64,000 nt of DNA from Halorubrum persicum (GTDB lineage Archaea > Halobacteriota > Halobacteria > Halobacteriales > Haloferacaceae). The position numbers and the translations under genes were made by a program. The stretch is taken from NCBI RefSeq assembly GCF_002727125.1, contig NZ_NHOA01000113.1:1-64000 (forward strand), read 5' to 3'. Position 1 is the stretch's first letter, and each line of letters starts with the position of its first letter. Under the pieces are notes generated by a model. It saw only the letters and a list, made by a program, of their open reading frames with translations, did not search any database and was not told the DNA's origin. Below are positions 2,604 to 53,940 of the stretch, in pieces.

Positions 2604-2631
2604 CACTGCGCGCGTCGGTCGCCAGAAGAGG

Positions 2632-7690: not shown

Positions 7691-10609
7691 ATGACGAGCG
7701 CTCCACAATTATCCCCCGGCCAGCGGGTGCTTCTCAATGACACTCCCGCCGAGGTAATCCGGACGCAGACTGTCGGCGATATCGAATATCTGCGGGCCTA
7801 TATCGAAGGAGAGGAAGCCAAAACCGTGTGTCTGGATGACGTTGAGGTCCAGCCGTCTGAGAGCGGGATTGAGACGCTTTCTGATTTCCAACTTGATTCG
7901 CTCCATCCTGACCACGAAGCAGTCTCCGCGCAGTGGTTCGACCTCCACACGCAGGCGACGAAACTCAAGCTTGCCCACGAACAAGGGCAGCTCCTGAGCA
8001 TCTCGAACTCGCTCGTTCGACTCGAACCCTACCAGCTCGACGCCGTCAACTGGGTGATGCAGAAACTCCGGCAGCGCGCGCTCATCGGCGACGACGTCGG
8101 CCTCGGGAAAACGATCGAGGCGGGGCTCATCCTCAAGGAACTCGCCGCCCGGAATCGCGCCGATCGTGTCCTGTTCGTCGTTCCGGCTCACCTCCAGAAG
8201 AAGTGGATCCGAGATATGGATCGGTTCTTCGACGTCGATCTCACGGTCGCCGATCGGGCGTGGGTCGACGGAGAGCGTCGACGCCTCGGTGAGGAAGCCA
8301 ACATCTGGAACCAAGACCAGCAACAACTCGTCACCAGTATGGCGTTCCTGCGACAAGACGAGTTCCAGCCTGCACTACAGGACGCGTTCTGGGACGTCGT
8401 CGTCGTCGACGAGGCACACAAAGCCGCTAAGCGAGGCGACTCGCCGAGCAAGACGGCACAGATGGTTGATACCATCACCGGAAACTCCGACTCGCTGCTG
8501 CTGCTCAGCGCAACTCCACACGACGGGAAAGGCGAGGCGTTCCGCTCGCTCGTCGAGTACATCGACCCGTTCCTTGTCGCCGAGAACCGCGAGCTCACAC
8601 AAGAAACGGTTGATCGCGTGATGATCCGACGTGGAAAGACCGACATCTACGACGAAGAGGGTGACCGGGTCTTTCCAGACCGTGAGGTCAACTCGGTCTC
8701 AATCTCGATGACACACGACGAGCGGCAGTTCTACCGTGCGGTCACCGACTACGTCAAAAACGTCTACAACCGCTCGGAGAAGCTGAACGAACCCGCGGTC
8801 GGGTTCGCGATGGCGCTCATGCAAAAACGGCTTGTGAGCAGCGTCGGCGCGATTCACGCGACGCTCCGTCGACGGCTTGACGATCTCCTCGATGAAGAAG
8901 CGGAGACTGATGGCCTGTCTGCGGAAGCGCGAGCCTATCTCGATGGCGAGGATTTGGACGAGGACGACAAAGAGCATGCAGAAGATGAGATCGCCGGGCT
9001 GACCGTCACCAGCACTGACGAACAACTCCACGAAGAGATCGATACACTCCGTGATCTCGTCTCACTGGCAGAGGATCTGCCGGTCGACTCTAAGGCCCAG
9101 AAGGTCAGACGGTTCATCTCCCAATTGCTTGAAGAGCAGCCGAACGAGAAGCTGCTACTGTTCACAGAGTATCGGGACACGCTCGACTACCTACTCGAGT
9201 ACGTTGAGGACGAGCCGTGGGCCGATGAGATTCTCGTGATCCACGGCGATGTCGACAAGCACGAACGGGCACGGATCGAAGACGAGTTCAACCACGGCCA
9301 GTCGCGACTGCTGTTCGCGACCGATGCCGCGAGTGAGGGGATCGACCTCCAGCATAGCTGCCACATCATGGCCAACTACGAGCTGCCGTGGAACCCGAAC
9401 CGGCTCGAGCAGCGGATTGGCCGTATCCATCGTTACGGACAGGAAGAAGAGGTCACAGTCTGGAACTTCCTCTTCGACGACACCCGCGAAAGCGAGATCT
9501 TCGAGATGCTCCAAACCAAGGTCGAAGAGATTCGCTCACAACTCGGAAACACGGCAGACGTACTCGGCATCCTCGACGACATCGACGTGGACTCGCTCAT
9601 TATGGAGTCGATCGAGAATGACGAGCCGCCGAGTGCGACCAAAGCGGAGCTCGAAGAGTTGATCGAAGAGCGACAGCGGACGCTCGAGGAGTGGTACGAA
9701 CGAAGCCTCGTCGATACGAGCACATTCGATGCGGAGAGTCGCCGGCAGATTCAGCAGGTCGTCGACGAGTCAGCGGATGTCTACGGGAGCGAAGGCGATA
9801 TTCGCGAGTTCTTCGAGCGGGCCGTCGAGGCCTTTGGCGGCGACTTCGAAAAGCGGGGCACCAACCTCTATCAAGCCGCGTTGCCGGACGGGATCGCCTC
9901 GCCGGGCCACGATTCGACGTTCGGTCCGTTCACGTTCGACCGCGACTTCGCGATGGAGCACGAGGATATCACCTATCTCGCTCCCGATACGGACGTCCTG
10001 CAACGGCTCATGGCACGCGTGTTGGAGGATGAGCGCGGTGAGGTCGGACTCAAACTCTTGCCGTTCGTCGACACGCCGGGGATCACCTACCACTATCGCG
10101 TGGCGTTCGAGGACGGCACCGGCGACGTGATTCGGGAAGAAACCATCCCCGTCTTCGTGGATGCTGCACACGAGGACGCACAGCAGGCACTTGGTGAACG
10201 CGTTGTTGAGGGTGACTCAATCGCAGCCAAACCCGACGTCGACGCGCTTCGGACAGTTCTCGACGCGCAATCCGACCTGCGGGCGGCTGCCGATCGGTAC
10301 GTGAGCGCGCGAGTCACCGAGATCAAAAACCAACTTCAGGAGAAGCGCCACGACGAGACCGCTCGCGAGCTGGAGAACCTCGAAGAATATGCACAGTCAG
10401 AGCGAGACCGGATCGAGTCCTTCATCGAAGAATACGAACGCAAAGCCGACGCCGGCTCGGACATGGACATCGCGATCCGTGGTCAACAGGAACGTCTTGA
10501 ACAGCTTGAGGACAGGATCGAAACGCGTCGCAACGAACTCCGGCGTCGAGAGCAGATTATCTCACTCGCACCCGAAGTAGAGAATTACTGTCTCACGCTC
10601 TCGTTGTAG
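7691..10609 (+). CDS. brxHII: SNF2-family helicase of the BrxHII/DrmD type
   Basis: A 972-residue SF2 helicase. Motif I is DDVGLGKTIEAG (Lys140), motif II is VVVVDEAHKAAK (Asp240-His243), motif III is LLLLSATPHDG, and the C-terminal RecA lobe ends with ASEGIDLQHSCHIMANYELPWNPNRLEQRIGRIHRYGQ. This Swi2/Snf2 layout with a long coiled C-terminus (Glu/Arg-rich, residues about 860-960) matches BrxHII of BREX and DrmD of DISARM. I favour the ATG at 7691; a GTG at 7595 in the same frame would add 32 residues unlike the family. Family role: ATP-driven translocation on DNA during phage restriction. It probably belongs to the pglX-pglZ locus but has been separated from it by about 5 kb. Confidence 0.88.
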   Translation: MTSAPQLSPGQRVLLNDTPAEVIRTQTVGDIEYLRAYIEGEEAKTVCLDDVEVQPSESGIETLSDFQLDSLHPDHEAVSAQWFDLHTQATKLKLAHEQGQLLSISNSLVRLEPYQLDAVNWVMQKLRQRALIGDDVGLGKTIEAGLILKELAARNRADRVLFVVPAHLQKKWIRDMDRFFDVDLTVADRAWVDGERRRLGEEANIWNQDQQQLVTSMAFLRQDEFQPALQDAFWDVVVVDEAHKAAKRGDSPSKTAQMVDTITGNSDSLLLLSATPHDGKGEAFRSLVEYIDPFLVAENRELTQETVDRVMIRRGKTDIYDEEGDRVFPDREVNSVSISMTHDERQFYRAVTDYVKNVYNRSEKLNEPAVGFAMALMQKRLVSSVGAIHATLRRRLDDLLDEEAETDGLSAEARAYLDGEDLDEDDKEHAEDEIAGLTVTSTDEQLHEEIDTLRDLVSLAEDLPVDSKAQKVRRFISQLLEEQPNEKLLLFTEYRDTLDYLLEYVEDEPWADEILVIHGDVDKHERARIEDEFNHGQSRLLFATDAASEGIDLQHSCHIMANYELPWNPNRLEQRIGRIHRYGQEEEVTVWNFLFDDTRESEIFEMLQTKVEEIRSQLGNTADVLGILDDIDVDSLIMESIENDEPPSATKAELEELIEERQRTLEEWYERSLVDTSTFDAESRRQIQQVVDESADVYGSEGDIREFFERAVEAFGGDFEKRGTNLYQAALPDGIASPGHDSTFGPFTFDRDFAMEHEDITYLAPDTDVLQRLMARVLEDERGEVGLKLLPFVDTPGITYHYRVAFEDGTGDVIREETIPVFVDAAHEDAQQALGERVVEGDSIAAKPDVDALRTVLDAQSDLRAAADRYVSARVTEIKNQLQEKRHDETARELENLEEYAQSERDRIESFIEEYERKADAGSDMDIAIRGQQERLEQLEDRIETRRNELRRREQIISLAPEVENYCLTLSL

Positions 10610-10854
10610 ATTCTGACCCTGTCCGATCAAGTCAGGAGGCTCACTAGCTTTGATTAGGAGATATCCTCCCTTCCTTGTTCAACTGGTGGGTCGCCAGTTT
10701 CCAGCAGGATACTGTCAGAGCTGTAGTTGAGGGAGAACTGTCCCACACCAGTACTCGTTGGGGATGACACACCAGCCACAGGAACTGGCCAGATACTGCC
10801 TAGAGATTGTTCCTCAAGGCAGGGCTTTATCGATGTGATGGACGAAGCGAAAGT

Positions 10855-11148
10855 ATGAGCGACTCGGCGTCGCCAAGCACCTCAGTCTCGCTGTCTGAGC
10901 CGGCCGATATTCCAGCAGTCTTGAATCGGGCCGGCATCGACTATGTCGGTGTGCATGATCAGCGACTACTGACGATCTATCGCACCGGAATTTTCAACGT
11001 GGTAACTGAGCCAGAGCCAGTATCGAATGCGTGCACACTCGAGATCGAATGTTGGGAAGCACCACTCCCGTCTCGTGGTGATGGTCGGTCACCACAGGAG
11101 CTTCTTGACGACCTTGCTGCCGTGTTCGAGCGCGGCGATAAGGCCTAA
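10855..11148 (+). CDS. Small hypothetical protein
   Basis: A 97-residue acidic protein of mixed alpha/beta composition with no recognised motif. The ATG at 10855 is chosen because a TATA-like TTTAT at about 10825 lies about 30 nt upstream; the frame before it is not haloarchaeal in character. Two phrases, PADIPAVLNRAGIDYVGVHD and TLEIECWEAPLPS, suggest a compact folded domain. It follows the helicase by 245 bp on the same strand. I cannot assign a function. Confidence 0.55.
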   Translation: MSDSASPSTSVSLSEPADIPAVLNRAGIDYVGVHDQRLLTIYRTGIFNVVTEPEPVSNACTLEIECWEAPLPSRGDGRSPQELLDDLAAVFERGDKA

Positions 11149-11245
11149 CATCCACGATCGCTCGGCCGCAACGGCGGTAAGCAGTTGAGACAGCAGGAAC
11201 GCTAGAAACAAATTATCCAGCACGAGTCAGTATATAACGCAATCT

Positions 11246-11683
11246 ATGAAAATTTCTGAGACGCTCCAGACGTTGTATACGGGAACTGTTGAGCACGACG
11301 ACGGCAGCTACCATATTACCGTCCCGGAGCGTGAGATAGCCACCGAGACAATCGCTGAAGATGAGACATACCGTGTTGCGCTTATTTCGACGTCAGCGTC
11401 GAATGCTGACGATACAGAGACGACTGACTCCATCCAACCTGCTGACCACGAAGATCAGCAGCAGGACTTCGAGGGCCCACCTGTCGAGGAAGGTGAGCAG
11501 CGGGAGGTTGAGATCGAGAACCTCGGTGACCAAGGTGACGGGATCGCGAAAGTCGAGCGCGGCTACGTCGTGATCGTCCCCAAGACGAACATTGGAGACC
11601 GCGTCACGGTTGAGATGCGACAGGTTCGCGAAAACGTTGCGTTCGCGGATGTCGTCGAGCACAACCCCCGTGAAGAAGTCTAG
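11246..11683 (+). CDS. TRAM-domain protein
   Basis: A 145-residue protein. Residues about 85-145 form a TRAM domain: VEIENLGDQGDGIAKVERGY, VVIVPKTNIGDRVTVEM and a final VAFADVVE strand. TRAM domains are OB-like RNA-binding modules; free-standing archaeal TRAM proteins act as RNA chaperones. The N-terminal 60 residues look like a short beta-rich domain starting MKISETLQTLYTGTVEHDDG, with an acidic linker between. The N-terminal half is longer than in the usual single-domain TRAM proteins (about 60-70 residues), and it may be a second RNA- or protein-binding part. It is a single gene with no obvious operon partner. Confidence 0.85.
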   Translation: MKISETLQTLYTGTVEHDDGSYHITVPEREIATETIAEDETYRVALISTSASNADDTETTDSIQPADHEDQQQDFEGPPVEEGEQREVEIENLGDQGDGIAKVERGYVVIVPKTNIGDRVTVEMRQVRENVAFADVVEHNPREEV

Positions 11684-11971
11684 AAGTTGCTGATTAGCAC
11701 GGACTAGTGGTTATAGAAGACTTCTCGCACACAAGCCGGATCGTTTAGTAGAAGGGGTGGAAGGAGCGTGTGACATAGATCCTTCCGACTGGAGTTTATC
11801 AGCACTTGAAAGTAAGCTTTTGGTGGGTTTCTGGGCCGGGCAAACTAGATTTCGGGGAGGCCGACTACCTGTTATCATCTGCAACAGACATTTACCGATT
11901 TGGTCACGGTCAGTACAGGGTATATAAATACACCCACTAAAAATTATACCGCAGGCAATTTAATGACCAGT

Positions 11972-12688
11972 ATGTCAAAATTTGATGAATATTTTAGAAG
12001 TACTTCGGATATCTTGGAAAGCGAATATGAGCGGTCCGCTGGTTTTGAACATAGTGGAACTGCAGGCGGCGCAAGAGAGTTTTTCGTAGAAAATTTTCTG
12101 AACAATATTTATCCAGAGAAGTTTGTCTTCGGAGATGGGGAGATAATTGATTCGAGCGGAGGAATCAGTGATCAAGCTGACGTAGTAATATATGATGAAC
12201 AGCTTCCTGTGTTAGAGTATGGTTCATCCAAGCATTTCCTTAGTGCAGGTGTGATGGCACATATTGAGGTGAAAACTGACCTGTCCAGTCAATTGGATAC
12301 TGCGCTCTCAAAGGTCCTCTCAATTAAACAACTCAATAAAGATATTACTCCTGTTATGTCGATAGGTCAGGTTCCAGATCATCTCTATTCCTGTGTATTT
12401 TCATACGAAGGTCCCTCAAAGTCCACCTTCAAGAAGAACGTATTAGATTTTTATCAAAATGAGCAGGTGCCTTCAGAGCAATGCGCAGATATGATCTGTG
12501 TGTTGGGGGAATACATTATGATAAAAAAACCAACCGATGATGGTGAGAAATTAGCCTTCCTTGAGACGGGCGATGATAGTCTAATGGCGTTTTTTGTCAA
12601 TTTGGCGGGAGCGGTCTCGAAAAACTACTGGCAGGGACGGCCCGATCTCTCGAAATATATGAGTACGAATCAAGCGAACCCCTTCTGA
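11972..12688 (+). CDS. DUF6602-like protein, probable PD-(D/E)XK fold
   Basis: A 238-residue protein. The N-terminal part reads REFFVENFLNNIYPEKFVFG, then GEIIDSSGGISDQADVVIYD and GVMAHIEVKTDLS, which match the DUF6602 pattern: an Asp in QADVVIYD and an E-x-K in AHIEVKT, as in PD-(D/E)XK nucleases. DUF6602 proteins are frequent in defence islands, so a nuclease or DNA-binding role next to BREX is plausible but inferred. The start at 11972 is preferred because ATTATACC at 11942-11949 is about 27 nt upstream; the ATG at 11963 is the alternative. The AT-rich codon use contrasts with the helicase and points to separate acquisition. Confidence 0.65.
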   Translation: MSKFDEYFRSTSDILESEYERSAGFEHSGTAGGAREFFVENFLNNIYPEKFVFGDGEIIDSSGGISDQADVVIYDEQLPVLEYGSSKHFLSAGVMAHIEVKTDLSSQLDTALSKVLSIKQLNKDITPVMSIGQVPDHLYSCVFSYEGPSKSTFKKNVLDFYQNEQVPSEQCADMICVLGEYIMIKKPTDDGEKLAFLETGDDSLMAFFVNLAGAVSKNYWQGRPDLSKYMSTNQANPF

Positions 12689-29330: not shown

Positions 29331-29364
29331 AAGATATATATAGATTGCCTGAGTGCATTTTCGC

Positions 29365-30561
29365 ATGAGCGACACAGAGTCATATTTCGGCGATCCCGAC
29401 CCGATCTTCGCCGATAAGGAACTGCTGCGGGTTAATCACCTTCCGGAAGGTGACCGCATCATCGGTCGCGAGGAGGAACTCGGTAACCTCGCGAACGCAA
29501 TAAAGGACGCGCAGCGCGGGGGGACACCGAATAATGTGCTGATCTACGGAAAAACGGGGACTGGCAAGAGTCTCTGCTCGAAGTACATCACACAGGATCT
29601 GATCGACGCTGCTTCCGAGAATGGTGTTTCTGTCGACGTGGCGTACATCGATTGTTTTCAGGAATCCACTGAGACGCAGGTTGTCCGGGCGATCGCCGAG
29701 TCATTCAACATGACTGAGATAACTGCCGTGTCGGTCCCGGCATCAGGCGTTTCTACATCTGATTACTACCGTCGCCTCTGGACGATCCTCGATACCTGCC
29801 TCGACGTGGGGATCATCATTCTCGACGAGATAGACAAGCTTGAAGATGACAATATTCTCATGCAACTATCCCGAGCGGCCGAAGCCGGGAAGGTCTCGGA
29901 GAGCACGCTCGGCATCATCGGGATCAGTAACAAGATCCGATACAAACAGTCGCTCAATGAGCGCGTCAAGTCGAGTCTCTCCGAGCGAGACTTTGTGTTC
30001 CCGCCGTATGACGCGAACCAACTCCGCGCGATCCTTTCCTCACGGGCGGACGCGTTCAGAGATGGCGTCCTAGACGATGAGGTGATTCCGAAGGTGGCAG
30101 CGCTCGCGGCCAGAGAACACGGCGACGCCCGGAAGGCGATCGACATTCTCCGGTACGCCGGTGAAATTGCTGACGAGCACGGCGACGACGTGGTCCGTGT
30201 TGAGTACGTTGACGAGGCCCATGAACGCGAAGAGGAAGCGCGTCTCGCCGAACTAATTGGAAAGCAACCCGAACATTCGAAACATTTGCTCCAAGGGCTG
30301 GCACTCCAGATGCAGCAGTCGGCCGAAACCGACGCCATGATCCCCTCGAAACAGGTATACTCCGCGTACGAGGTCGTCTGTGAACGCGAGGGGACAGACC
30401 CGCTCAAGATCCGCCGCGTCCGCGATCTGCTCTCCGAACTGGCATTCCTCTCGCTGATCGAGCAAGACCGGAAGGGGCGCGGGAAGGGGAAGGGAGCCCA
30501 CACGGTGAATCAACTAGTCGATGACCCCGAGCTCGTCGTCGAGGCGTGTAAATCAGCGTGA
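29365..30561 (+). CDS. orc1/cdc6: Orc1/Cdc6 replication initiator
   Basis: A 398-residue AAA+ ATPase. Walker A is YGKTGTGKS (Lys68), Walker B is IIILDEIDKLED (Asp154-Glu155), sensor 1 is LGIIGISNKIRY and sensor 2 lies in REHGDARKAIDILRYAGEIA. The C-terminal winged helix (about 305-398) includes VYSAYEVVCEREG and RRVRDLLSELAFLSLIEQDR. The start at 29365 follows a TATATATAG box by about 25 nt, giving a leaderless mRNA; an ATG 12 nt upstream is less likely. The protein binds the repeats upstream and loads MCM. It gives this part of the window its own origin. Confidence 0.95.
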   Translation: MSDTESYFGDPDPIFADKELLRVNHLPEGDRIIGREEELGNLANAIKDAQRGGTPNNVLIYGKTGTGKSLCSKYITQDLIDAASENGVSVDVAYIDCFQESTETQVVRAIAESFNMTEITAVSVPASGVSTSDYYRRLWTILDTCLDVGIIILDEIDKLEDDNILMQLSRAAEAGKVSESTLGIIGISNKIRYKQSLNERVKSSLSERDFVFPPYDANQLRAILSSRADAFRDGVLDDEVIPKVAALAAREHGDARKAIDILRYAGEIADEHGDDVVRVEYVDEAHEREEEARLAELIGKQPEHSKHLLQGLALQMQQSAETDAMIPSKQVYSAYEVVCEREGTDPLKIRRVRDLLSELAFLSLIEQDRKGRGKGKGAHTVNQLVDDPELVVEACKSA

Positions 30562-38501: not shown

Positions 38502-39506
38502 ATGAGTCGGTATATGATAACGACTGTCATCTACGCTGAGTCCGGGGGGACGTACAAAACGACCATGACAGCAAACCTCGCGGTCGCGTTCAAGCGGATG
38601 GGGCTTGATGTCCTCGTGATCGACTTAGACCCACAGACAGGAAATCTCACCTCACTCTTTGACGTCGGAGAGAACCGTGGGAACCCGGATGCAGACAATC
38701 TCGTAAAGCACATTCTGGAAATGCCTGATAGCGACTTCGACGACCTCATCGAGACCTCTGAGGAGGGCATCGACATAATTCCGAGCCACGACATGTTGGG
38801 GGACTTCACCTCCAACCTTGAGCAGAAGATCTCCTATGAAACGGGGATGAAGGGTATCTCTCGGGACGAGTACCCCCGCTTCGAGCTTCTATACAATCTC
38901 CTCTGGGAGCGAGAGCAGTTGAACGAAACGTACGACGCAGTCCTCATCGACCCCAACGCGCGCGCCGAAGACCTCCTGTACAATGCTATCTACGCGCTTC
39001 GGACACTGGTAGCACCCGTTAAGCCAGCTGGGAAGGGAAGTCTCAGCCTCGATGGTCTTGAGGAGATGGTCGGAAACATGGAGACTGCGCTGGACATCGA
39101 AATCGGGCTTTCGTGCGTGGTTCCGTCCGGGGTTGGGCAGACGAACGCCCACAAGCAGTATCGCGATCAGTTCGAAAATACGGACTCCTTTGCAACGCCA
39201 GTCTCTATCGGGTCACGAGAGAGTCTGATGGACGCTATGTGGGAAGCCCGTGGCTCTGCGTTCAAAGTAGTCGAAGAGAGGTGGAAGACCTACGAGGAGG
39301 ACGGCGAGATGATCACGGAGAAAGGTGAGCGAAGAGTGCCCGACCGTGAACTCGAAACGCTGGAGAAGCTATGGCAGCTGGCGGGATTCATTGCGACGGA
39401 GACGTTCGGTGTAGATGTCGACGATGAACTCGTCCTAGATATCGATGACTACGGGACTGAGACGATGCGGTTCAACCTCACGACTGAACCGGAGGTGGCT
39501 GACTAA
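38502..39506 (+). CDS. ParA-like ATPase with an altered Walker A motif
   Basis: A 334-residue ParA/MinD-superfamily protein. The phosphate-binding loop reads YAESGGTYKTTMTANLAVAF, so the normal K-G-G-x-G-K-T-T has become S-G-G-T-Y-K-T-T: the catalytic Lys19 remains, but the signature Lys is replaced and a Gly is Tyr18. VLVIDLDPQTGNLTSLFDVG and AVLIDPNARAEDLLYNAIYA (Walker B) are intact in form. It has an extended C-terminal part (residues 260-334). It overlaps the next gene (TAATG) and follows the iteron cluster, so it is a plasmid partition ATPase different in type from that at 20239. Confidence 0.85.
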   Translation: MSRYMITTVIYAESGGTYKTTMTANLAVAFKRMGLDVLVIDLDPQTGNLTSLFDVGENRGNPDADNLVKHILEMPDSDFDDLIETSEEGIDIIPSHDMLGDFTSNLEQKISYETGMKGISRDEYPRFELLYNLLWEREQLNETYDAVLIDPNARAEDLLYNAIYALRTLVAPVKPAGKGSLSLDGLEEMVGNMETALDIEIGLSCVVPSGVGQTNAHKQYRDQFENTDSFATPVSIGSRESLMDAMWEARGSAFKVVEERWKTYEEDGEMITEKGERRVPDRELETLEKLWQLAGFIATETFGVDVDDELVLDIDDYGTETMRFNLTTEPEVAD

Positions 39507-41920: not shown

Positions 41921-44900
41921 ATGCTACACCCATTCAACTACTTTAACGACCACACACTCCCAGACTGGCTCAAAGGCCCTCGCCACCACCAACTCGGTGC
42001 CCGGGAACCAGACGCACCGCAAATCAACCAAGTCCTCGTCGACACAATCAACGAGGCCGCCGAGGGTTACGCCGGCAGCCTCAATCGGGTCCGGCCCCAC
42101 AAGGAAGAAGACGGTCTCAAATACGCCGAGGAACTCATCGCCGGGTTCCACAACGAGAGCGTCTCACACTCCAAGCTCGCCCAGCGGTTCAACCTCGCCG
42201 AGCAGCCCAAGAAGTTCTCCTTTGAGATGGTCCTGACCGACGAGACGGTCAAGTTCCACTGGGGACTCCCTGATAGTATCCACCAGCGGGAGTTCCGCCA
42301 GCAAGTCTCCGGGCTCTACCCCAACTCCGAGATCAAGCCTGTCGACAACCCCTTCCCCGAGATCGAACCCGGCATGTACCTCGCTGGAGGGAAACTCGAA
42401 CTCGAACAGCACAAGTACCGGCCACTCCGCGGGACGAGTGGGCCAGACGCCTTCGAGACGGATCCACTCCGCAGCACCCTGAGTGAGCTCGTCGGCTACA
42501 GCAACGAGGTCGCGATTGTCCAGTTCGTGTTCACGCCGGCAGGCCCCAACTGGACTGAAGGACACATGCCCCACGAATGGAGCGCCGACCAGATCAACGA
42601 TGGGTTGACCTACGGCCGCGTCAACGGGAGTTACTGGAACCCACGGCTTGACGACCCATCCGCCAAAGATCTCCGGGCCGCCGAGGAAGTCCTCAATCAG
42701 GAGGGCAAGCAGGCGTACTACCTCAACATTCGCTTCCTCGTGTTCGCCTCGTCACCGGATATCGCGAAACACCACGCCCACGGCATCGGGAGCGTCTTCT
42801 CCTCGCAGTACCACAACGAGGAGACCGGCCAGACGCTCCTGCCGCTCGCATTCAAAGAGCAAGGCGTCAAGGAACTCGCCCGGCGGACGGCCGCCCGCGA
42901 GTTCTCCTACGACCAGACCTCACTCAACGTCTCCGAGCTCGCCGGCCTCGCACACCTCCCCGGCGAGGAGGTGAACATGACGAACGTCGACTGGACGCGG
43001 AAAGGCGTCGGCAACCGCCCACCCGCACAGGCAAACCGCACGACCAAACCACCCGACATGCGGGTGAATCGTGACCTGTCGGAAATTGGCGGCGAGGCCT
43101 CGGCGATGGCGTCACTCTCAGGCGACCACACTGAGGAGACCGACACCGTCGGTACTGACGCCCCCGAAGAGGAAGACAACATCTTCATGAAGGGACTCGG
43201 CACCGTTCTCCGCTTCTTCTTCGACGACACCACCGATAGCGACGACGGCGACGACGGGCCCACAAAAACCGTTGATGTCGATTCATCCCCTGAGAAACAG
43301 GAGGCATTCAACGAGCTGTATCGTCAGTTCATCCACGGGGAAGTGACCCGTGAGAAGATCAAATCCCAGTTCAACGACAACGTCGCCGACAACCTCATCC
43401 GGAAGTTCCAGAACCGCCGGGCCGACGAACTCGGGATCGACCTCGAAGAATATGACGCTCGCGACGACGTCTTCAGCGCACCCGGAGCCCGCACCACCCC
43501 TGACGAGGAGGAGACACCCGCCACGGACGCCGACGAGTCCGACACAGGATCTTCAACCAAGTCCCAAACACCAAGTGGGCCAGATATCCCACCCGAGGAT
43601 GCCGAGGGCGTCACCGATCTCCCGGCCACGCCCGACGACGACCTGCCGGAGACGACTGACGACTCGACGGGCCCGCCAAGCCCGTACACACGCGGTCGCG
43701 AGAACCCCGCCCACCACAGTCACTACACCTACGACCAGTCCGACACCGACGTGCAACTTCGCCGGGAGCCCGGCCTCCAGCGGTACTTCCCATTCGAGCT
43801 CACGGCGACCGCCAGCGGGAAGGGACGCGCCCAAGAAGGAGACATCTTCGCCGGGTTCGACGTTCGCGACCGACTCGTCCACTCGCACACGCATCACCCG
43901 GACGAACCCATCTGGCTCGGCTACGACAACAACCCGATGGACGGCATCCGCGAAATCGGCCTCGAACCGTTCTCGTGGTTCCGGCACATGACGATCTTCG
44001 GGTCGACTGGCAAGGGCAAGTCCACCACCCTGAACATGATGATGAACCAGATCGCCCGGAAGGACTACGGGTTCGTGTTTATCGACCCGAAGGGCGACAC
44101 CGTCGACGACCTCATCACACAGTTGCCCGAGGAGCGGATGGACGACATCGTGTGGATCGAACCGGGGAGTGAGACATACGACCAAGTCGCAGGCATCAAC
44201 TTCCTCGAACCGGGCGAGTGTGAGACCCAAATCGAGTTCGACCGGGAAGTCGAGTCCATCATCAACGACCTCCGGGCAGTCCTGCGTGGGGGTGAATACT
44301 GGGGACCGAAGATGGAGGGAATCACCTCCAATGTCGCCCGGGCGATGATCCGGTCGCGACGCAAGTTCACGCTCGTGGACATGTACTACGTACTGGCCGA
44401 CAACGAGAGCCGCGCGAAGTTCTCAAATGTGGTCAGCCAAGAAGGGATGAGCTTCATCCACGAGTACACCACGAAAATCGCAGAGATGGATGTAGAGGAG
44501 ATAGACCCGGTTCTCCGGCGGATTCAGGACTGGGTCGAGGATCCGATTTCCCGCGGGATCGTGGCTCATCGCGATGGGACAATCAACATCTCCCACGCCG
44601 TTGAGGAAGGGAAGATCATCCTCGTGCGGAATACGGTGCGGTCCGACGAGATCCGGAAGGTTGTCTCGACGGGCATCATGCGCCGGGTGTGGTCGACCAT
44701 CCGAAAGCGCGAGAAGGTTGAGGAAGCTGACCGGGAGCCCTTCTTCGCGATCATGGACGAGTTCGACGACATCGCCTCCGAGAACATGGCGCTCGACAAG
44801 ATGCTCTCGAAGGCCCGCTCCGGGAAAATGGGCGTCATCACCTGTCTCCAGAACCCCTCGCAGGTGCGCGACATTGCGCCACAGACGCTCAAGCAGATGT

Positions 44901-47900
44901 TCGGGAATTCGGACACGCTGTTGAGCTTCGGTGTGACGGAGGTGGATGATGCTCGGATTATCGCCGAGCGGTTCGACGACGACTCGATCGACTCGGGGAC
45001 GCTCATGTCGCTGCCGGCGTACACGGCGCTCACGACGATCTCCACGATGGACGAGGACGGGCCGATGCGGTCGGACCCGCTTGCACCGGACACATTCGCG
45101 CCGTACCCGGCACGACGGACGCCCGAAGAGGCCGAAGAGATCATCGGCGAGAACCTCAAAGAGTACGGCGTCGACGCGCTCGAACAGAATCTCGAGGAGT
45201 CCGAGCACGCGTTGATGCATCTCGGCGGGGACAACGACCTGTCGAAGTGCTTCCTCGAAGCCGTGTGGTCGAAACAGATCCGCGAGAACGCTCTCGACGC
45301 GCTGCCCGGCGAGTACGAGACACTCGAGCCGGCACCGGCGCTCAACATCAACCCACCGGAGATGCAGGACGACGAGACGCTCACCGTTACCGTCGAGGAG
45401 GCGAACGAAGGCTTCCACCGGCGGACGTCGACACACTTCGAGGAGCTCCCCGATGGCGTACTGGTCGACCGGGAGTTCGTCAAGATAGTCGATGAAGAGG
45501 CTGAAGAAGAAGCCGACAACATCCGGGGGACCGGCGGGACGCCCGCGGGGCAAGTCCGGATCAACGACCCGAAGACAGAGCTGTCGATCACCGACAAGGG
45601 CATCCGGTCGGTACTAGAGCAGGCCGAAGACGACTCGCGGAACCAGACGGAGAAACACAACGAAGTCCTCCGCCGGGCGTTCGTGATGCTGTCGGCGACC
45701 GGAATGGAGGTCAGCATCGTCCAGCAGGACAACAAACAGGAGCTCCCCGACGCCGTGGCGTACCCACCCATCGACACGACGGTCGACACGAAGCAGGCGT
45801 CACGGCTTCTTGAACAGTTCAAAGCCGACTACCCGATTGCCGCAGAGCTCTCTGACGGCGGTGTCATCGCGATCGAAGCGGAGACATCGACGTATAAAAA
45901 GCCGGCACACACGTTGCAGAATCTCGCCCGGGCTGCTCGGAGCGGCCAGCGGGCGATGTTCCTGACGCCAGAGATGGAGGCCAAAGACCGGACAGCACCC
46001 GTCGCCCGCGTCAATCACATCCTCACCGACCCGATGTTCATCCGCAAGCATCTCCGGATGCGCCCGAACGAGGACACAGAGGATGCGGGTGAGCTTTCGG
46101 AGCGCGACCCGATGCCGCTGTACTACAACAAGACGGACTACCTTGAGTTGGGGACACCCACTGACGGTGAGCGCAAGCACGCACTCATCGAGAAAGGGAA
46201 ACAGGCGGTCTGGATCCACACCCACGACGACCAGATCCAATTGTACGACGGCATGACCGACGGCGCAAAGAAGGGCGCACTCCGGATGGACGAAGGGTTC
46301 GGCTCGACGAACGCCTTCGACGTCTGGTGCCGCTTTGACGAGCACAACAATGAGTGGGTCGTCTACCCCGGTGGCGAAGTCCAACGCTACCCGACACTCG
46401 GTGATCTCTGCGAGGACTGGCAGCCCGTCTACGAACCGTTCGTCCCCGAACGCGAGTTCGAGGAGACACCCACAGAAGACGATTGGGACATTGTCCAGAC
46501 GCCGCTCCCAGATTTCCTCTCGCCAGCAGACAAAGCCGACGACGAGGAGACTGACACCACCGGTGACGAGGAACCACCAGAGGATGACGCGGAGACAGCT
46601 CCTGATGGAACGTACACCAACATCGAGGAAGTACCAGAGGAGGCTGCACTTGACCAGCAGAACTCTGACCATGACGACGATGACACGGACATCGACTTAG
46701 ACCGCGCCGGGTTCACACGGGAGGCAGTTCCCATCCCCGACCGGGTTCTGCCGAGCAAACTTCCGAACAACACCGACAGCCACACCGGCGAATCCGTAAC
46801 CGGCGGCGAGCAGCACACAACCATCTCCTCGAAGGCGCTGGAGTCGATGGTCCCCGAGAAGCACATGCCGGTCTACCGGGCAATGGCTGCTCTCGACATC
46901 GGGGAGAACGCCCGTGACCCGGTCGGCATCCACGACGACGGCAATTCCTCGGGTGAGGGCGAGACACCGGCCACGGACGCGGCCGAGATGCCTGACGAGG
47001 AACCCGACCCAGACGTGGACACGACCGTGGATGAAGACGACCCGTTCGGCGTCGACGACGACAGCGCCGGGCCGGTCGGCATCCTCGAAGAAGACGACGA
47101 CAATAGCAAGGGCCCGATTGACGCCTTGACATTCACCTACGACGCAGCAATGAACAACCTGAGAACAAAGTACATCGCCAATAGCGACGAAATCGACGAG
47201 AATAGCTCACCCGACGATATCGAAATCGACTCCGAAGCAGTCACCGACAAATTCGGCGCGAAAGATCCCACCGACGCCGACTTCTGGCAAGACGTATGGG
47301 ACTCGGCGAACCTGAACCAGACCGAGGCCATCTTCCGGGAGAACCTGCCCGGTGCACTCCGGTACGGGCCCGGTGTCCGTGGTCCGCAGGCCGCCGACGC
47401 GATCAAGATCGGGATTGCGACGAACAAGCTCATGCCCGCCGGTGAGGATGCGCTCCGGCTGCCCGGACCGCGCGACTCTCCGCAAGATTACCTTACCGAC
47501 GAGGAGATCGCGGAGATGCAACGGCGGGACAGCTGGGTTCCCGTGTGGGACGCCCTCGGAACGGACCACGATGCCAACACCAATGTCTCGATGGCAGTAA
47601 TCGCGATTAAACGGGAGTACGACTTCAGAAACCCGATGGCACGGGCCGCGATCGGTGCAGGCGTCGATGCCGGCGTCATCAAAGAGGAAGGGAAGCAACT
47701 CGCACTCGGTGAGCGGACAGTCCCGGTGTTCTGGGATGAGCTACTGGACACCGCCGGGAACCAGCCGCATGACCCGCTCGCGGAGCAAGGCATGACCCTT
47801 GCCCTCTGGGATGCACACGACCTCTCTCAAGAACAGGCAGAAGCGACGATCGAGGCTGCCTGCGACCACGGCACAGTGTACCGCGACGACGAGACTGACC

Positions 47901-50900
47901 AGCTCAAGGTGAACACGCCACGCGACGAGAAAGGCCCCGAGATCGACCCTGTGGCCTTCGACCGGGATGCGTACCCGCCGAGCGAGGATGATGAGTCGGA
48001 CTCCGACTCCGGTGGCGACGGTTCTGGTGACGACGACTCCGATGACGACCCGGACGGTGGCGACACACCAACCGAGACAACTGACGAGGAATCTCCTGAG
48101 CAAACTTCTGAGGAACCCACAGAGATTACTGATCAGCAAACTCCTGAGCAAATTGGAGAGAATACCGACGACCAACCCGGCGCACAGAGCGACGCCGACG
48201 AAACGCGCCGCGTGGGACAGACCGCGGCCGGCGAGCCCCGTGCGGAGCCCAACAGCACGCTCGTCGACGCCGACCCGGAAGACCTCCGCTTGAGCCCCAC
48301 GCCGGACCTCGGCGCGGTCCAAGCCTGCCTCGAAGAGGCGGCCCGCTTCTTCCACAGCCAGTTGGACACGACGATCGACAACAACGTCACGTGGAACGAG
48401 GAACAGGCGTTCGAAGCGGGCTACCGGAAGCCCGAGACCCCGCGGGAATACTTCACCGCGCTCGACGAGCCCGACCCCGCCTACCCCGTCGAGCAAGATC
48501 CCGAGGCGGCCGACGCGATGCCGCCGAACGAGGACGCACAGACCTCCGGCATCCAGTCCACGGAGGATGCGGCAGACAACACGGGGGAGCCCGAGGACTT
48601 CGCGGCAGACGGACAGGCCTACCAGTACCTCGGTGCCGACCACCGGGGGTGGAGCGATGAGCTCGTCGCCGACAAACAACTTGGGTGGGCTCCCTCCTTC
48701 GGGAAGGAACTCTTCTTCCATCTCGAAAGCAAGGGGTTCAGTCACCACACGATGGTCGCGACGGGCCTCTTCACCAAGCCCACCGACGCCTACGGCGAGA
48801 ACGACGAGGGTGAGGGGTACGTCGACTACACCACGCTCGATGATCCCGACAACCCGAACGACCTCTCGTGTCTCTTCCGGGGGCGGTACATCTTCCCGTA
48901 CTACGACGAGGACGGCAAGGTGGCGTTCTTCATCGGGCGGCGGCCGGACTTCGACACTCAATACGGCACCCACACCGACGACTTCACGGAGGGGAAGTAC
49001 GCCAAGCTCGCGACGACGAAGAACTACACCATCGCCGACGAGCCGATCTACGGCCGTGAGACCATCGTCGAGGGCGAACCCCTCGCGATTACCGAGGGAA
49101 TGGCCGACGCGATCACGGCCCACGCACATGGCATCCCGTGCATCTCGCCGGTGACGAAGTCGTTCAAGATGAAACACCGTGACGTGCTCGCCGACATCAT
49201 CAAGCGCCGGGAGATCCCCGACGTGTACTTCCTCCAAGACTCTGACCCGCCAAAGCGGGTGGTCCTTGCGGAGGAAGACCGCGACCACGACGAGCGCCGG
49301 TGTGAACGCGACATGGCCCTGCGTGAGTTGTTCTGTACGGGCGCGTTCCCCGGCGACGAGATGTTCACCCAGAAGCTGGTTGTCGAAGCCGCTCGCGACG
49401 GGACGCTCCAAGACAAACTCGACGATCAGGAGCTCCGTGTCGGGCCGCCCGCTGACGCCGACGTCGACGCCGACGAGACGACGCCAGTGACAGCAGAGGA
49501 AGTCCCCGTTCACCTGTTGGAGACACAGGGAGAATTCCGGTCGAAAGGCCCCATCAGCGAAGTGATCGAACTCCACCAGCACGGGCCGGGCGTCGACAGC
49601 GCGGTCAACATGGGCCGGGTACTCGACACCCACACGCCCTCGCCGGACGATACCTTCACGGGAAGCGTCCGGGCGTCGGCCGAAGTGTACCGTGAGGAAG
49701 TCCTCAATGGGGACGCCGATCTCGTCGAGGACAACGACGAGCTCTATGAGACCGTCGCGGCTCGGCTCGGAGCCATCGACGTAGAGACCGAGACGGATGA
49801 GACCGCACAGAGCGCCGATGCAGACGGGCAGACAGAGCTTGTGCCCGACGACGAGCCCGAGTACACGGACTACGGTGGGACGAACGTGTGGCTCCTTGAG
49901 CTGCCGCAGTTCGGCGATGAGAAACGCGACCTCGACGACTTCCTCCAAGAGGGCTGGCTCGCCTTGACACCGCCCGCCGACTGGGCGCTGCGCCTGTCGC
50001 TGGGGAACACGCCGGTCCCGCCTGACGATGTGACGGCGAACCTCGATCCGGCCCCGGCATGGATGCAGACGCTCGCCGATCGGGCGGACCCAGTTGGAGA
50101 ATATCCGACCGGAATGGCCCCCGATTCACTCGGGTTCCCGACGGCCAATGACCTCCCCCAAACGGTGGGGACGATCACCGTCGATGGGGCCGCCGCAGAC
50201 CTCCCGATTTACGACCCATATATCATCCCGTCTGACCCCGACGCAGACCGGGATGAAATGGCGGCGACTCACCGGTGGCCTGTGGGTGATTTCGATGCGC
50301 TTCGCTCAGAGGGGAAGATGGCCGAGCCGATGCCCCAAGCACCCGGGGTCTACCCACCCCTCTCATTGTTCGGATTCATCCCCACGATCCACCCGTCACA
50401 GCACCCCGCTGCGAAAGGCTCCATCGGGGGGCTGGTGAACGACGCCAACGACTCGATGGACGTCGACCCACAGGAGATCGAAGCCCGGGTCGAAGAGGGT
50501 GACTATCGCGAGCTCACAGGGAGCCATAACCCCCTCTGGACACTCGACCTGCGCGACCTTGGACTCACGCCCGGCTCCCGTGGGAAAAACCCCTTCGGAC
50601 ACTTCGGTGAATCGGAGAATTACTTCGTCGTGATCGACGACGAAACCGCCTACTGTCACAAGCGGAATGCCCTCTATAACTTCCAGCATTTCGCGCTGTG
50701 TGACATGGGGAAGCGCGACCCCAAATATTCGGCAAGTGGTCAGACTCTCGATGATTTGGAATACCTCCATCTCTGGACCTACGCTCGCCAGAACAACCTC
50801 GTCCCAGAGCACACGCCCATCCCCCTCAAGGGGGTTGTTGGCTACGCGATCGAGCATGATTTTTGCGAGCCCGACGACCTCGAACAATTCGACGGTTCGA

Positions 50901-51553
50901 AGGAAGATTCCGACGGGGATGGCGACGAATCGAACGGCGACTCCGACGGGAGTACCACGGCAGGCAAGCGCGCCTTGAAGCTCCCGGAGGGTACCTTCTT
51001 CCCAGTTCTCAAAGACATCGAGAAGACGACAGGATACACGCCGCCGCAGCTCGCCGATAGTGACTGGTCGGGTGAGGAAGATGGCGACGAGTCGAGTGAG
51101 CCAGCGGACGCACCCGACGTTGACACAGCGTCGATCGCACTCGACACAATGATGGACCGGTACGGAACCCTCGTCACAGACGATGGCTTCCCACATCCGA
51201 TGGTCCAGTTCGCAAACATCCTTCTCGAGATCGAAGACGACCTCGATGAGGCTCGGAAAGACGACGGGGCCACTCCCGTCTCTGACCTCCGGAGTGCGTA
51301 CAACGCATGGGCGCAGATCAACACGCACAAGTTGGTTAAGGAAACTGATGTAACGGCAGATGAGTTGGACCTGTCGACGTACGGTGTTGGCGGATTCGCA
51401 AGTAAGTTCCGCGCCGAACTCGGCATCAGTCCGACGTCGAAGAAGGTGTCTCTCGACGGGCGTGGTCGCGCCAAATGCTGGCTCGGATTGGAGCTCACTG
51501 ACCCCGGCAAGAAGCTGGTTGACCTCGAAGATAAGTTCCCGATCGAAGAGTAG
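41921..51553 (+). CDS. Giant fusion: HerA/TraG-like ATPase, PD-(D/E)XK-like domain, wHTH modules and TOPRIM primase
   Basis: A 3,210-residue protein in one frame. Approximate parts: 1-600, an N-terminal region like that before conjugation ATPases; 600-1100, a HerA/VirD4/TraG-type motor with Walker A GSTGKGKST (Lys700) and Walker B FFAIMDEFDD (Asp946-Glu947), then CLQNPSQV; 1250-1345, a PD-(D/E)XK-like core with ELPDAVAY (Asp1277) and IAIEAETS (Glu1319, Glu1321); 1785-2005, three similar wHTH-like modules; 2230-2480, a DnaG-type catalytic core with TOPRIM AITEGMAD (Glu2392) and FLQDSDPP (Asp2440, Asp2442); 2750-3210, a region resembling the D5/P4 primase end, with VSDLRSAYNAWAQIN and GRAKCWLG. 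Acidic linkers separate the parts. It has a GGAGG ribosome site. The probable job is DNA transfer and replication of a mobile replicon; that is inference. Confidence 0.85.
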   Translation: MLHPFNYFNDHTLPDWLKGPRHHQLGAREPDAPQINQVLVDTINEAAEGYAGSLNRVRPHKEEDGLKYAEELIAGFHNESVSHSKLAQRFNLAEQPKKFSFEMVLTDETVKFHWGLPDSIHQREFRQQVSGLYPNSEIKPVDNPFPEIEPGMYLAGGKLELEQHKYRPLRGTSGPDAFETDPLRSTLSELVGYSNEVAIVQFVFTPAGPNWTEGHMPHEWSADQINDGLTYGRVNGSYWNPRLDDPSAKDLRAAEEVLNQEGKQAYYLNIRFLVFASSPDIAKHHAHGIGSVFSSQYHNEETGQTLLPLAFKEQGVKELARRTAAREFSYDQTSLNVSELAGLAHLPGEEVNMTNVDWTRKGVGNRPPAQANRTTKPPDMRVNRDLSEIGGEASAMASLSGDHTEETDTVGTDAPEEEDNIFMKGLGTVLRFFFDDTTDSDDGDDGPTKTVDVDSSPEKQEAFNELYRQFIHGEVTREKIKSQFNDNVADNLIRKFQNRRADELGIDLEEYDARDDVFSAPGARTTPDEEETPATDADESDTGSSTKSQTPSGPDIPPEDAEGVTDLPATPDDDLPETTDDSTGPPSPYTRGRENPAHHSHYTYDQSDTDVQLRREPGLQRYFPFELTATASGKGRAQEGDIFAGFDVRDRLVHSHTHHPDEPIWLGYDNNPMDGIREIGLEPFSWFRHMTIFGSTGKGKSTTLNMMMNQIARKDYGFVFIDPKGDTVDDLITQLPEERMDDIVWIEPGSETYDQVAGINFLEPGECETQIEFDREVESIINDLRAVLRGGEYWGPKMEGITSNVARAMIRSRRKFTLVDMYYVLADNESRAKFSNVVSQEGMSFIHEYTTKIAEMDVEEIDPVLRRIQDWVEDPISRGIVAHRDGTINISHAVEEGKIILVRNTVRSDEIRKVVSTGIMRRVWSTIRKREKVEEADREPFFAIMDEFDDIASENMALDKMLSKARSGKMGVITCLQNPSQVRDIAPQTLKQMFGNSDTLLSFGVTEVDDARIIAERFDDDSIDSGTLMSLPAYTALTTISTMDEDGPMRSDPLAPDTFAPYPARRTPEEAEEIIGENLKEYGVDALEQNLEESEHALMHLGGDNDLSKCFLEAVWSKQIRENALDALPGEYETLEPAPALNINPPEMQDDETLTVTVEEANEGFHRRTSTHFEELPDGVLVDREFVKIVDEEAEEEADNIRGTGGTPAGQVRINDPKTELSITDKGIRSVLEQAEDDSRNQTEKHNEVLRRAFVMLSATGMEVSIVQQDNKQELPDAVAYPPIDTTVDTKQASRLLEQFKADYPIAAELSDGGVIAIEAETSTYKKPAHTLQNLARAARSGQRAMFLTPEMEAKDRTAPVARVNHILTDPMFIRKHLRMRPNEDTEDAGELSERDPMPLYYNKTDYLELGTPTDGERKHALIEKGKQAVWIHTHDDQIQLYDGMTDGAKKGALRMDEGFGSTNAFDVWCRFDEHNNEWVVYPGGEVQRYPTLGDLCEDWQPVYEPFVPEREFEETPTEDDWDIVQTPLPDFLSPADKADDEETDTTGDEEPPEDDAETAPDGTYTNIEEVPEEAALDQQNSDHDDDDTDIDLDRAGFTREAVPIPDRVLPSKLPNNTDSHTGESVTGGEQHTTISSKALESMVPEKHMPVYRAMAALDIGENARDPVGIHDDGNSSGEGETPATDAAEMPDEEPDPDVDTTVDEDDPFGVDDDSAGPVGILEEDDDNSKGPIDALTFTYDAAMNNLRTKYIANSDEIDENSSPDDIEIDSEAVTDKFGAKDPTDADFWQDVWDSANLNQTEAIFRENLPGALRYGPGVRGPQAADAIKIGIATNKLMPAGEDALRLPGPRDSPQDYLTDEEIAEMQRRDSWVPVWDALGTDHDANTNVSMAVIAIKREYDFRNPMARAAIGAGVDAGVIKEEGKQLALGERTVPVFWDELLDTAGNQPHDPLAEQGMTLALWDAHDLSQEQAEATIEAACDHGTVYRDDETDQLKVNTPRDEKGPEIDPVAFDRDAYPPSEDDESDSDSGGDGSGDDDSDDDPDGGDTPTETTDEESPEQTSEEPTEITDQQTPEQIGENTDDQPGAQSDADETRRVGQTAAGEPRAEPNSTLVDADPEDLRLSPTPDLGAVQACLEEAARFFHSQLDTTIDNNVTWNEEQAFEAGYRKPETPREYFTALDEPDPAYPVEQDPEAADAMPPNEDAQTSGIQSTEDAADNTGEPEDFAADGQAYQYLGADHRGWSDELVADKQLGWAPSFGKELFFHLESKGFSHHTMVATGLFTKPTDAYGENDEGEGYVDYTTLDDPDNPNDLSCLFRGRYIFPYYDEDGKVAFFIGRRPDFDTQYGTHTDDFTEGKYAKLATTKNYTIADEPIYGRETIVEGEPLAITEGMADAITAHAHGIPCISPVTKSFKMKHRDVLADIIKRREIPDVYFLQDSDPPKRVVLAEEDRDHDERRCERDMALRELFCTGAFPGDEMFTQKLVVEAARDGTLQDKLDDQELRVGPPADADVDADETTPVTAEEVPVHLLETQGEFRSKGPISEVIELHQHGPGVDSAVNMGRVLDTHTPSPDDTFTGSVRASAEVYREEVLNGDADLVEDNDELYETVAARLGAIDVETETDETAQSADADGQTELVPDDEPEYTDYGGTNVWLLELPQFGDEKRDLDDFLQEGWLALTPPADWALRLSLGNTPVPPDDVTANLDPAPAWMQTLADRADPVGEYPTGMAPDSLGFPTANDLPQTVGTITVDGAAADLPIYDPYIIPSDPDADRDEMAATHRWPVGDFDALRSEGKMAEPMPQAPGVYPPLSLFGFIPTIHPSQHPAAKGSIGGLVNDANDSMDVDPQEIEARVEEGDYRELTGSHNPLWTLDLRDLGLTPGSRGKNPFGHFGESENYFVVIDDETAYCHKRNALYNFQHFALCDMGKRDPKYSASGQTLDDLEYLHLWTYARQNNLVPEHTPIPLKGVVGYAIEHDFCEPDDLEQFDGSKEDSDGDGDESNGDSDGSTTAGKRALKLPEGTFFPVLKDIEKTTGYTPPQLADSDWSGEEDGDESSEPADAPDVDTASIALDTMMDRYGTLVTDDGFPHPMVQFANILLEIEDDLDEARKDDGATPVSDLRSAYNAWAQINTHKLVKETDVTADELDLSTYGVGGFASKFRAELGISPTSKKVSLDGRGRAKCWLGLELTDPGKKLVDLEDKFPIEE

Positions 51554-51885
51554 TTAGCCGCCACCGCGCCCCCTCGTTTTCACTTTTCGCTACTCACTTC
51601 ACACCGATAGCTATCAGATTTAGTATGCAGTTTTGGCGCGACATTGAGTGCCACTTCACCCACCCGAGTCACTGTCCAATACACCATTGGCGACCAGTTT
51701 GTGCTACCGACAGCAGCCACTAATCTCCCATCAATTCCCCACCCAGATCGTCACCTGAGTCGGCCCGATCTCCAGAGATAGCACAGCCGATTCTTCAGCT
51801 GGACGCGCCCCTGCTCATAGCCAATTTTCAGCGCCGAAATACCCTCCAACACCCCCTCCGACACCCCTCCGACACCCCGACGCAG

Positions 51886-52294
51886 TCATGCGATTGTCCG
51901 AGGGGGTACTCCACGGTCTTCGAACCGACTATTTCACCCGGATTCCGAGAATTCTCAAAACCAGTCAAATTTCACTGATATACGCGTGGAATATGGGAGA
52001 TCATGAAATCCTGAAAATAACTAGACGGGGGCGGATGTCTTAGGGGGTCTAGAAATCATCGGCCACCCCTCGGACACCCCTCAGACAATCGCATGAAGGC
52101 ACGGACTTCAGACAATCCAAACACACCAGCTTTTGACTTTCTTTCGCATATAACAGTCACAATCTCGATACGTCGACGTTTTAGAGTGAAAATAACTAGA
52201 CGGGGGTGGAAGACGGCGATATTTCGGCGAAAAAATCGTCCGAGTAGCACCCCCCTCCGACATCCCGGCGCAGTCATGCGATTGTCGGAGGGGT
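51886..52294. other. Origin-like cluster of inverted G-tract repeats
   Basis: A 21-22-bp repeat, TCATGCGATTGTC then C/T/G and GAGGGG, occurs on the plus strand at 51886 and 52274 and inverted at 52075-52096. A second repeat of 24 bp, AAAATAACTAGACGGGGG with flanks, occurs in direct orientation at 52012 and 52187. The spaces between are AT-rich. Inverted repeats with G-strings around AT-rich DNA are the haloarchaeal origin pattern. It starts 330 bp after the giant primase gene. No initiator gene is adjacent. Confidence 0.65.
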
Positions 52295-53736: not shown

Positions 53737-53940
53737 ATGAACGCACTACTCGCACTGCTGCTGTTCGGCATCGGCGTGGTCTTCAGCATCGTCCTCGCAA
53801 TCGCCTTCCTCTTCGCCATCATCGCCAACGCCAACACGGCTGACGCATCGGACGGCTGCGACTACTGCGACAGCGACTCGGCGACCCGTCTCGGCGGTGG
53901 TGAGGTCGCCTGTTCGGACTGCCGTCGGACGCACCTCTGA
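53737..53940 (+). CDS. Small membrane protein with a zinc-ribbon tail (67 aa)
   Basis: A 67-residue protein: MNALLALLLFGIGVVFSIVL opens a single long transmembrane helix, and the tail has GCDYCDSDSATR and VACSDCRRTHL, giving two CxxC knuckles 17 residues apart. A membrane anchor with a zinc ribbon on the cytosolic side would be a small adaptor. A T-run terminator follows at 53983. It is the first of a set of small genes after the giant gene. The function is unknown. Confidence 0.75.
   Translation: MNALLALLLFGIGVVFSIVLAIAFLFAIIANANTADASDGCDYCDSDSATRLGGGEVACSDCRRTHL

Follow-up and report, generated by a model that had tools for sequence, protein, structure and literature searches.

The window analysed here, a stretch of 64,000 nucleotides from Halorubrum persicum, corresponds to positions 1-64000 of a 99,777-bp contig (NZ_NHOA01000113.1) and carries on its forward strand a gene of 3,210 codons without an internal stop. 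The encoded protein joins, from N to C terminus, a T4SS partner, a VirD4/TraG-like motor, a nuclease-like domain, a winged-helix (wH) region, a DnaG-type primase and a C-terminal D5-type winged helix. A ParA gene lies 2.4 kb upstream, further upstream is an Orc1/Cdc6 initiator that likely drives vegetative replication of the contig, and three related DNA sites follow the stop codon. The features are as follows:

29353-30561, + strand: Orc1/Cdc6 initiator (TIGR02928, 7e-122), on the fusion gene's contig
38502-39506: ParA gene
41921-51553, + strand: fusion gene, 3,210 aa, ATG to TAG, its architecture shared by at least 10 further records
42020-43057, + strand: Nter domain, residues 34-379, a separate gene preceding the coupling protein in haloarchaeal T4SS operons
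43820-45250, + strand: VirD4/TraG/HerA-like ATPase motor, residues 634-1110, Walker A 694-702, Walker B 941-950
45608-46510, + strand: PD-(D/E)XK-like region, residues 1230-1530, D1277, E1319 and E1321 invariant
47240-48100, + strand: wH-like conserved region, residues 1774-2060, also in primase-less fusions and a free-standing Halonotius primase
48611-49300, + strand: DnaG_N and TOPRIM core, residues 2231-2460, E2392, D2440, D2442, partner motif DLDD at 2670-2673
49880-50914, + strand: Cmid, primase-associated domain, residues 2654-2998, travels with the TOPRIM core
51248-51538, + strand: C-terminal D5-type winged helix, residues 3110-3206, wing motif RGRAKCWLG at 3181-3189
51864-51905, no strand assigned: Dyad 1, CCCCTCCGACA-core-TGTCCGAGGGG, core on the reverse strand CAATCGCATGACTG
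52012-52035, + strand: secondary repeat TGAAAATAACTAGACGGGGGYGGA, second copy at 52187-52210, kept in relatives
52066-52099, no strand assigned: Site 2, in-register core ACAATCGCATGAAGG, degenerate dyad, opposite orientation
52252-52293, no strand assigned: Dyad 3, CCCCTCCGACA-core-TGTCGGAGGGG

A first-pass annotation had described one uninterrupted 3,210-residue frame, and both the frame and the motif positions it gave are correct (GSTGKGKST at 694-702, FFAIMDEFDD at 941-950, PD at 1276-1277, EAE at 1319-1321, and E2392, D2440 and D2442). GC content by codon position (0.66/0.41/0.79) is typical for a haloarchaeal gene, and the protein is strongly acidic (21% D+E). The search across taxa for the same architecture that had been proposed as a check yielded at least 10 further records with full fusions of 3,114-3,389 aa, in the same domain order and at 25-97% identity; the supposed uniqueness of the fusion to this genome thus gives way to a family with at least 10 other members. 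These are found in Halorubrum (Halorubrum laminariae, on two contigs, Halorubrum distributum and Halorubrum Atlit-26R), Natronorubrum (Natronorubrum thiooxidans), Haloferax (Haloferax elongans), Halobaculum (Halobaculum marinum and Halobaculum magnesiiphilum) and genome G159 (twice). As fusions of the same size occur in independent assemblies, including complete plasmids of the two Halobaculum species, a sequencing or assembly join of two genes is ruled out.

The motor scores above the curated cut-offs of Pfam TrwB_AAD_bind (9.8e-10, 38.3 bits against a cut-off of 20.5), TraG-D_C (4.5e-6, 27.0 bits, cut-off 22) and DUF87 (8e-8), bearing out the HerA/TraG-type motor of the first-pass annotation, and its residues K700, D946 and E947 are invariant among relatives; we regard the VirD4/TraG-like assignment as solid. 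The N-terminal membrane anchor of VirD4/TrwB is absent and the fusion protein has no transmembrane segment, its maximum 19-residue hydropathy being 1.26; the same measure gives 0.79 and 1.18 in the two-gene relatives, versus 2.58 in VirB4 and 2.74 in p6069. Those relatives belong to haloarchaeal T4SS operons, which in Natrinema CP031298 and pNATPE01 run in the order pilin, p3442, p5388, p6069, VirB4 (identified by NCBIfam NF045971, 4e-54), Nter, motor and NrS-1-HBD protein. The 399-aa gene before the motor (L068:10599-11798) corresponds to fusion residues 34-379 (profile E 2e-70), and the 1,020-aa motor gene is matched by the fusion profiles of the motor (9e-139), of the nuclease-like domain over the same region (8e-22) and of the winged helix, over its last 100 residues (4e-10), a C terminus that also scores on Pfam Pox_D5 (1.8e-4). 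At nearly all genomic motor loci there are two genes, Nter then motor, placed behind VirB4 where the stretch covered it. On these matches, the N-terminal half of the fusion is the equivalent of a pair of neighbouring genes that come immediately after VirB4 in the T4SS operons of haloarchaea. The Natrinema coupling proteins share with the fusion a motor, a nuclease-like domain and a D5-type winged helix in the same order, with the Nter gene adjacent and a core DNA site about 160-180 nt downstream; unlike the fusion, they consist of two genes with no TOPRIM inside and an NrS-1-polymerase-HBD protein next door, and their loci hold VirB4, pilin and pore genes. That neighbour carries the NrS-1 primase-polymerase's helicase-binding domain (PF22763, 3.6e-31) and lies right behind the coupling protein at L068:15194-16495 and at other T4SS loci. 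A 1,454-aa coupling protein of another subfamily, in Halomontanus rarus CP119799 (L073:7883-12247), likewise ends in a D5-type winged helix (Pox_D5 5.5e-7). A PDB profile search with the Nter domain gave nothing significant, and an IMG/VR scan with the motor gave no match.

Two other components of a transfer apparatus were sought. VirB4, in the two types searched, was not found in this genome, Halorubrum distributum, PV6, two Halobaculum genomes or the Halorubrum ezzemoulense plasmid, and self-transfer from this genome alone is therefore doubtful; one of the two G159 fusions lies about 3 kb behind a VirB4-like gene. Pfam and NCBIfam scans recognised no relaxase family, whether in the fusion or in four genes of the T4SS operon (coupling protein, VirB4, Nter and NrS-1-like). 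The nuclease-like region follows the motor, and of the PD-(D/E)XK-like core assigned to it on first pass the residues D1277, E1319 and E1321 stand, together with K1327, which is invariant among fusions, while the fold is unproven: the region has no Pfam or PDB profile match, and an AlphaFold model of motor plus nuclease (residues 636-1535, from an alignment of 7 sequences only) reached a pLDDT of 34.6. In D1277...E1319-x-E1321 a glutamate takes the place of the lysine of the D...[DE]xK motif, a replacement likewise found in BamHI.

The DnaG-type TOPRIM core is confirmed by Pfam DNAG_N (2.1e-6, above its curated cut-off), by TIGR01391 dnaG (3.5e-7), by a profile match to Bacillus subtilis DnaG (5guj, 2e-13) and by an AlphaFold model of residues 2085-3210 that matches the DnaG RNA-polymerase domain (5w34, 1.9e-8), and the assignment is solid. 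E2392 is invariant, and DxD reads D-x-[DE] in most relatives. Likeness to the RNA-polymerase domain of DnaG (PF08275 plus TOPRIM) extends over sequence, predicted fold, acidic residues and the DLDD partner motif; unlike DnaG, the fusion is joined to a conjugation motor, has D or E as the second DxD acid in relatives and lacks a detected CHC2 zinc-binding domain, for which there was neither a Pfam match nor a C-x2-[CH]...C-x2-[CH] pattern in the protein. A PDB profile search with Cmid returned nothing significant, and an IMG/VR scan with the primase returned one contig. Of the three wHTH-like modules previously noted, confirmation extends to a single conserved stretch at 1774-2060 and, at the C terminus, to the winged helix of 3110-3206.

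The primase module also stands alone, on plasmids of 10.8, 14.0 and 23.7 kb, all without Cdc6; on one of these (L070), the part scanned by Pfam held no other recognisable Rep. By their gene content, the free-standing primases look like the only plausible replication gene of 10-24 kb plasmids without Orc1/Cdc6. Those of Halorubrum BOL3-1 p13 and Halomarina BCD28 unnamed5 share TOPRIM-Cmid with the fusion at 35-39% identity but differ in standing alone and in the C-terminal part that follows, which is long, unrelated and contains a TrmB/MarR-like winged helix. In the H. persicum genome itself, a 15.7-kb contig (L022, G000:C13:1-15718), probably a small plasmid with a primase-type Rep, has as its largest gene (ORF 6778-12051) a free-standing TOPRIM-Cmid protein of 1,757 aa. 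Within the fusion the module is an insert into the coupling protein, placed ahead of the winged helix, because the two-gene coupling protein already ends in a D5-type winged helix and because fusions without TOPRIM exist: that of pHAR01 lacks residues ~2090-3045 (the primase) and keeps its C-terminal end, and those of G047 and G018 measure about 2,030-2,520 aa. The winged helix is kept in pHAR01, in G018 (L123) and, weakly, in G047 (L122).

In the motor tree, fusions are split from two-gene forms by a supported branch (96/88), apart from which stands the G198 fusion, where Nter, motor and nuclease were fused independently; primase-less fusions are nested among those that bear the primase: pHAR01 falls within a clade supported at 100/100 (exact place 92/74), and L123 is sister to Halobaculum magnesiiphilum (100/97). 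In the TOPRIM tree, which is unrooted and has long branches, a single clade of fused primases is rejected (AU p 8e-49): those of Halorubrum and Natronorubrum group with free-standing Halonotius proteins (96/94), those of Halobaculum and Haloferax are separate (98/92), and the G159 ones fall elsewhere. Repeated primase capture and capture with later release both fit this tree; whether the link between motor and primase was made repeatedly or once and then released, either course suggests that both work in one step. A 1,061-aa protein encoded on Haloferax gibbonsii pHG3 has a TOPRIM part that hardly differs from that of the fusion in Haloferax elongans (L061/L074), perhaps a recent release from, or capture into, a fusion.

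The first-pass annotation had further pointed to origin-like DNA downstream of the gene, and such DNA is indeed present as the three sites between 51864 and 52293. They recur about 310, 530 and 710 nt (span about 300-740) behind the stop in all Halorubrum and Natronorubrum copies, each about 50 bp long and composed of a C-run arm, a constant core resembling AAAAYCGCA[A/T]GACG and a G-run arm, and a 20-nt pattern of the sites has three matches in the window versus 0 expected. Ten Halorubrum/Natronorubrum copies, the primase-less pHAR01 among them, have the dyads in register; none in register were found behind the Haloferax, Halobaculum or G159 fusions. Although arms vary from one plasmid to the next, 93% of inner positions pair between cognate arms versus 39% across plasmids, the former figure being inflated since copies were chosen partly for having a stem. 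Rfam found nothing in the downstream DNA. About 2.2 kb downstream of seven Halorubrum copies there is a conserved ORF of 67 residues (53737-53940 here), whose product has a single hydrophobic helix and, towards its C terminus, four cysteines.

Variation of the arms is matched in the protein. Of the D5/P4-like end proposed earlier, the D5-type winged helix holds and the helicase does not: Pfam and NCBIfam gave no SF3 helicase or D5_N match in the fusion, and relatives show nothing of this kind beyond the Pox_D5-type winged helix at their C terminus. The winged helix is the fastest-changing domain of the fusion, and its wing changes with the arms, RGR[AP][KR]C[WY] pairing with GGACA arms, GKQVRTWFG with GGATA, RPRKTVWFG with TTGACC and EDGNRPTVWYG with TTGACGTA. 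In two close pairs, Halorubrum laminariae_b versus PV6 (84% identical winged helix) and Halorubrum distributum versus Atlit-26R (85%), wing and arms nonetheless differ in step. Winged-helix identity is 0.70 within an arm type versus 0.42 between types, a difference equalled in 56 of 20,000 label permutations, in a test that ignores relatedness and for a wing motif chosen after the alignment was seen. We read this covariation as a winged helix that would bind the arms as half-sites; as the arms follow the wing motif, an RNA-hairpin reading of them is less likely than one of protein-read half-sites. The dyads were also considered as the primase's own sites, a possibility rejected because pHAR01 keeps them without a primase.

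The core extends beyond the fusions. Seven coupling-protein loci without TOPRIM (L068, L069, L073, L128, L130, L131 and L134) carry one same-strand core each, roughly 100-180 nt past the stop of the coupling-protein gene (163-178 nt in 6/7), and repeats such as TGTCCACGCA often flank the core in T4SS loci. Match density behind the coupling-protein stop is 17.5-fold that elsewhere in the loci (all loci), for a consensus derived from the fusion copies and one T4SS copy and with L069 and L128 being near-copies. An unbiased scan of 391 genomes with AAAAYCGCAWGACGG gave matches in 92 genomes, versus two matches for the reversed control. Six of 30 inspected core loci adjoin a coupling-protein gene, with an NrS-1-like gene next in five; the others lie elsewhere, some perhaps in promoters. 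As most inspected matches lie elsewhere, the core motif alone is not diagnostic, and its many other chromosomal occurrences led us to reject it as a specific oriT marker. In several haloarchaeal genomes (L148, L149, L151, L153, L159, L162 and L163) a recurrent GTACCAAAC-like stretch follows the core motif AAAACCGCAAGACGG at a distance of about 20 nt, an arrangement that is perhaps the promoter of a chromosomal gene.

Taken together, we lean towards reading the fusion as a coupling protein of the conjugation type into which its T4SS partner and a plasmid primase have been absorbed and which acts at an oriT-like site. The proposal made on first pass, that one polypeptide couples DNA movement to priming during conjugation-like transfer, survives in that motor and primase do share a polypeptide whose parts are genes of a T4SS operon, and is weakened, as far as self-transfer goes, by the lack of a match to either type of VirB4 searched. 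From the parts, their order, the selection on them, the site and the covariation we infer the steps of docking, cutting, pumping and priming. The winged helix would dock the protein on the downstream oriT-like site, where the D...ExE domain may nick or trim the DNA in place of a relaxase; the hexameric motor would drive a single strand to a mating pore, and synthesis of the complementary strand would be started by the DnaG-type primase, in donor or recipient. In hosts without VirB4, the plasmid might be mobilised via the pore of another element or through the cell bridges of haloarchaeal mating. In the fullest and more tentative form of this reading, the fusion could be an all-in-one transfer initiator. 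The CGCA[A/T]GAC dyads would be an archaeal oriT on which one protein performs every step: recognition, a cut by the nuclease of the coupling protein rather than by a relaxase, pumping of the strand and priming of its complement.

A replication or maintenance protein is a possible, if not the favoured, alternative, in which the primase fires at the three dyads as at an iteron origin, the motor is a HerA/FtsK-like helicase or segregation pump, and conjugation is only ancestry. The free-standing relatives that look like the sole Rep of their plasmids, the several hosts without VirB4 of the two types searched and the nearby ParA gene agree with it, as does the position of the site right behind the gene, a layout shared with the SNJ2 replicon, where a site directly behind the initiator gene ORF19 supports replication (PMC13107129). 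It sits less well with the presence of Orc1/Cdc6 on every fusion-bearing megaplasmid record tested, including this contig, with pHAR01, which retains dyads and winged helix without the primase, and with the core site behind T4SS coupling-protein genes that have no TOPRIM. That the gene is a remnant of a conjugation locus, decaying or neutral and drifted by gene fusion, is improbable. Truncated copies do occur, in Halorubrum ezzemoulense (with an IS630 transposase gene at the broken end), Halorubrum PV6, H. yunnanense, Halobaculum rubrum and G115, but catalytic residues are invariant across far relatives and the family is under purifying selection from Nter to Cmid, every domain showing a dN/dS of 0.04-0.34 in six pairwise comparisons, linkers and wH at the upper end. 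In the same comparisons faster evolution, reaching 0.78, is seen in the last linker and in the C-terminal winged helix, with the exception of the winged helix against Halorubrum laminariae_a, which is nearly identical. Least probable of all is membership of a defence system, which a match of the motor to PADLOC MADS mad8 (3.7e-17 at residues 688-1037) and HerA models might suggest: mad8 also matches the Natrinema T4SS VirB4 (8e-13) and VirD4 (5e-18) and so reads the ATPase fold only, no other MADS part was recognised among the window genes scanned, and the nearest homologues lie in T4SS operons.

Among conjugative primases of bacterial plasmids, TraC of RP4 and Sog of ColIb are separate proteins exported to the recipient. 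If the fusion is the coupling protein we favour, a primase would serve DNA transfer in both cases, and only the haloarchaeal one is part of the motor protein. The Ced and Ted systems resemble the fusion in being archaeal T4SS-type transfer with a VirB4-like ATPase and no relaxase known, and Ted loci in having HerA-like and ParA genes nearby (PMC9905601). Ced, and probably Ted, are import systems of thermophiles (PMC9905601), and no primase fusion has been described for them; in the fusion, unlike there, coupling protein and nuclease-like domain are one protein. No relaxase has been recognised for archaeal conjugation, though ssDNA is probably transferred (PMC9905601). A candidate relaxase substitute is the coupling protein, with its invariant D...ExE motif and the conserved site nearby. 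The literature searched held no description of an archaeal oriT, and the open literature searched none of the fusion, of a primase insertion into a coupling protein or of the site, an absence that is weak evidence.

Each part of the fusion is already known in kind. What stands out is their union in one genetic unit, which brings together the coupling protein and its nuclease-like domain, the partner protein, the primase and the DNA site that covaries, a site whose core recurs behind the coupling-protein genes of haloarchaeal operons with an intact T4SS. It offers concrete targets in D1277, E1319 and E1321, in the wing at 3181-3189 and in the 430-bp DNA. If the all-in-one reading is true, the same site and the nuclease-bearing coupling protein of the two-gene operons would be the missing relaxosome of haloarchaeal conjugation. 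The fusion may help to show how archaeal DNA transfer starts without a known relaxase.
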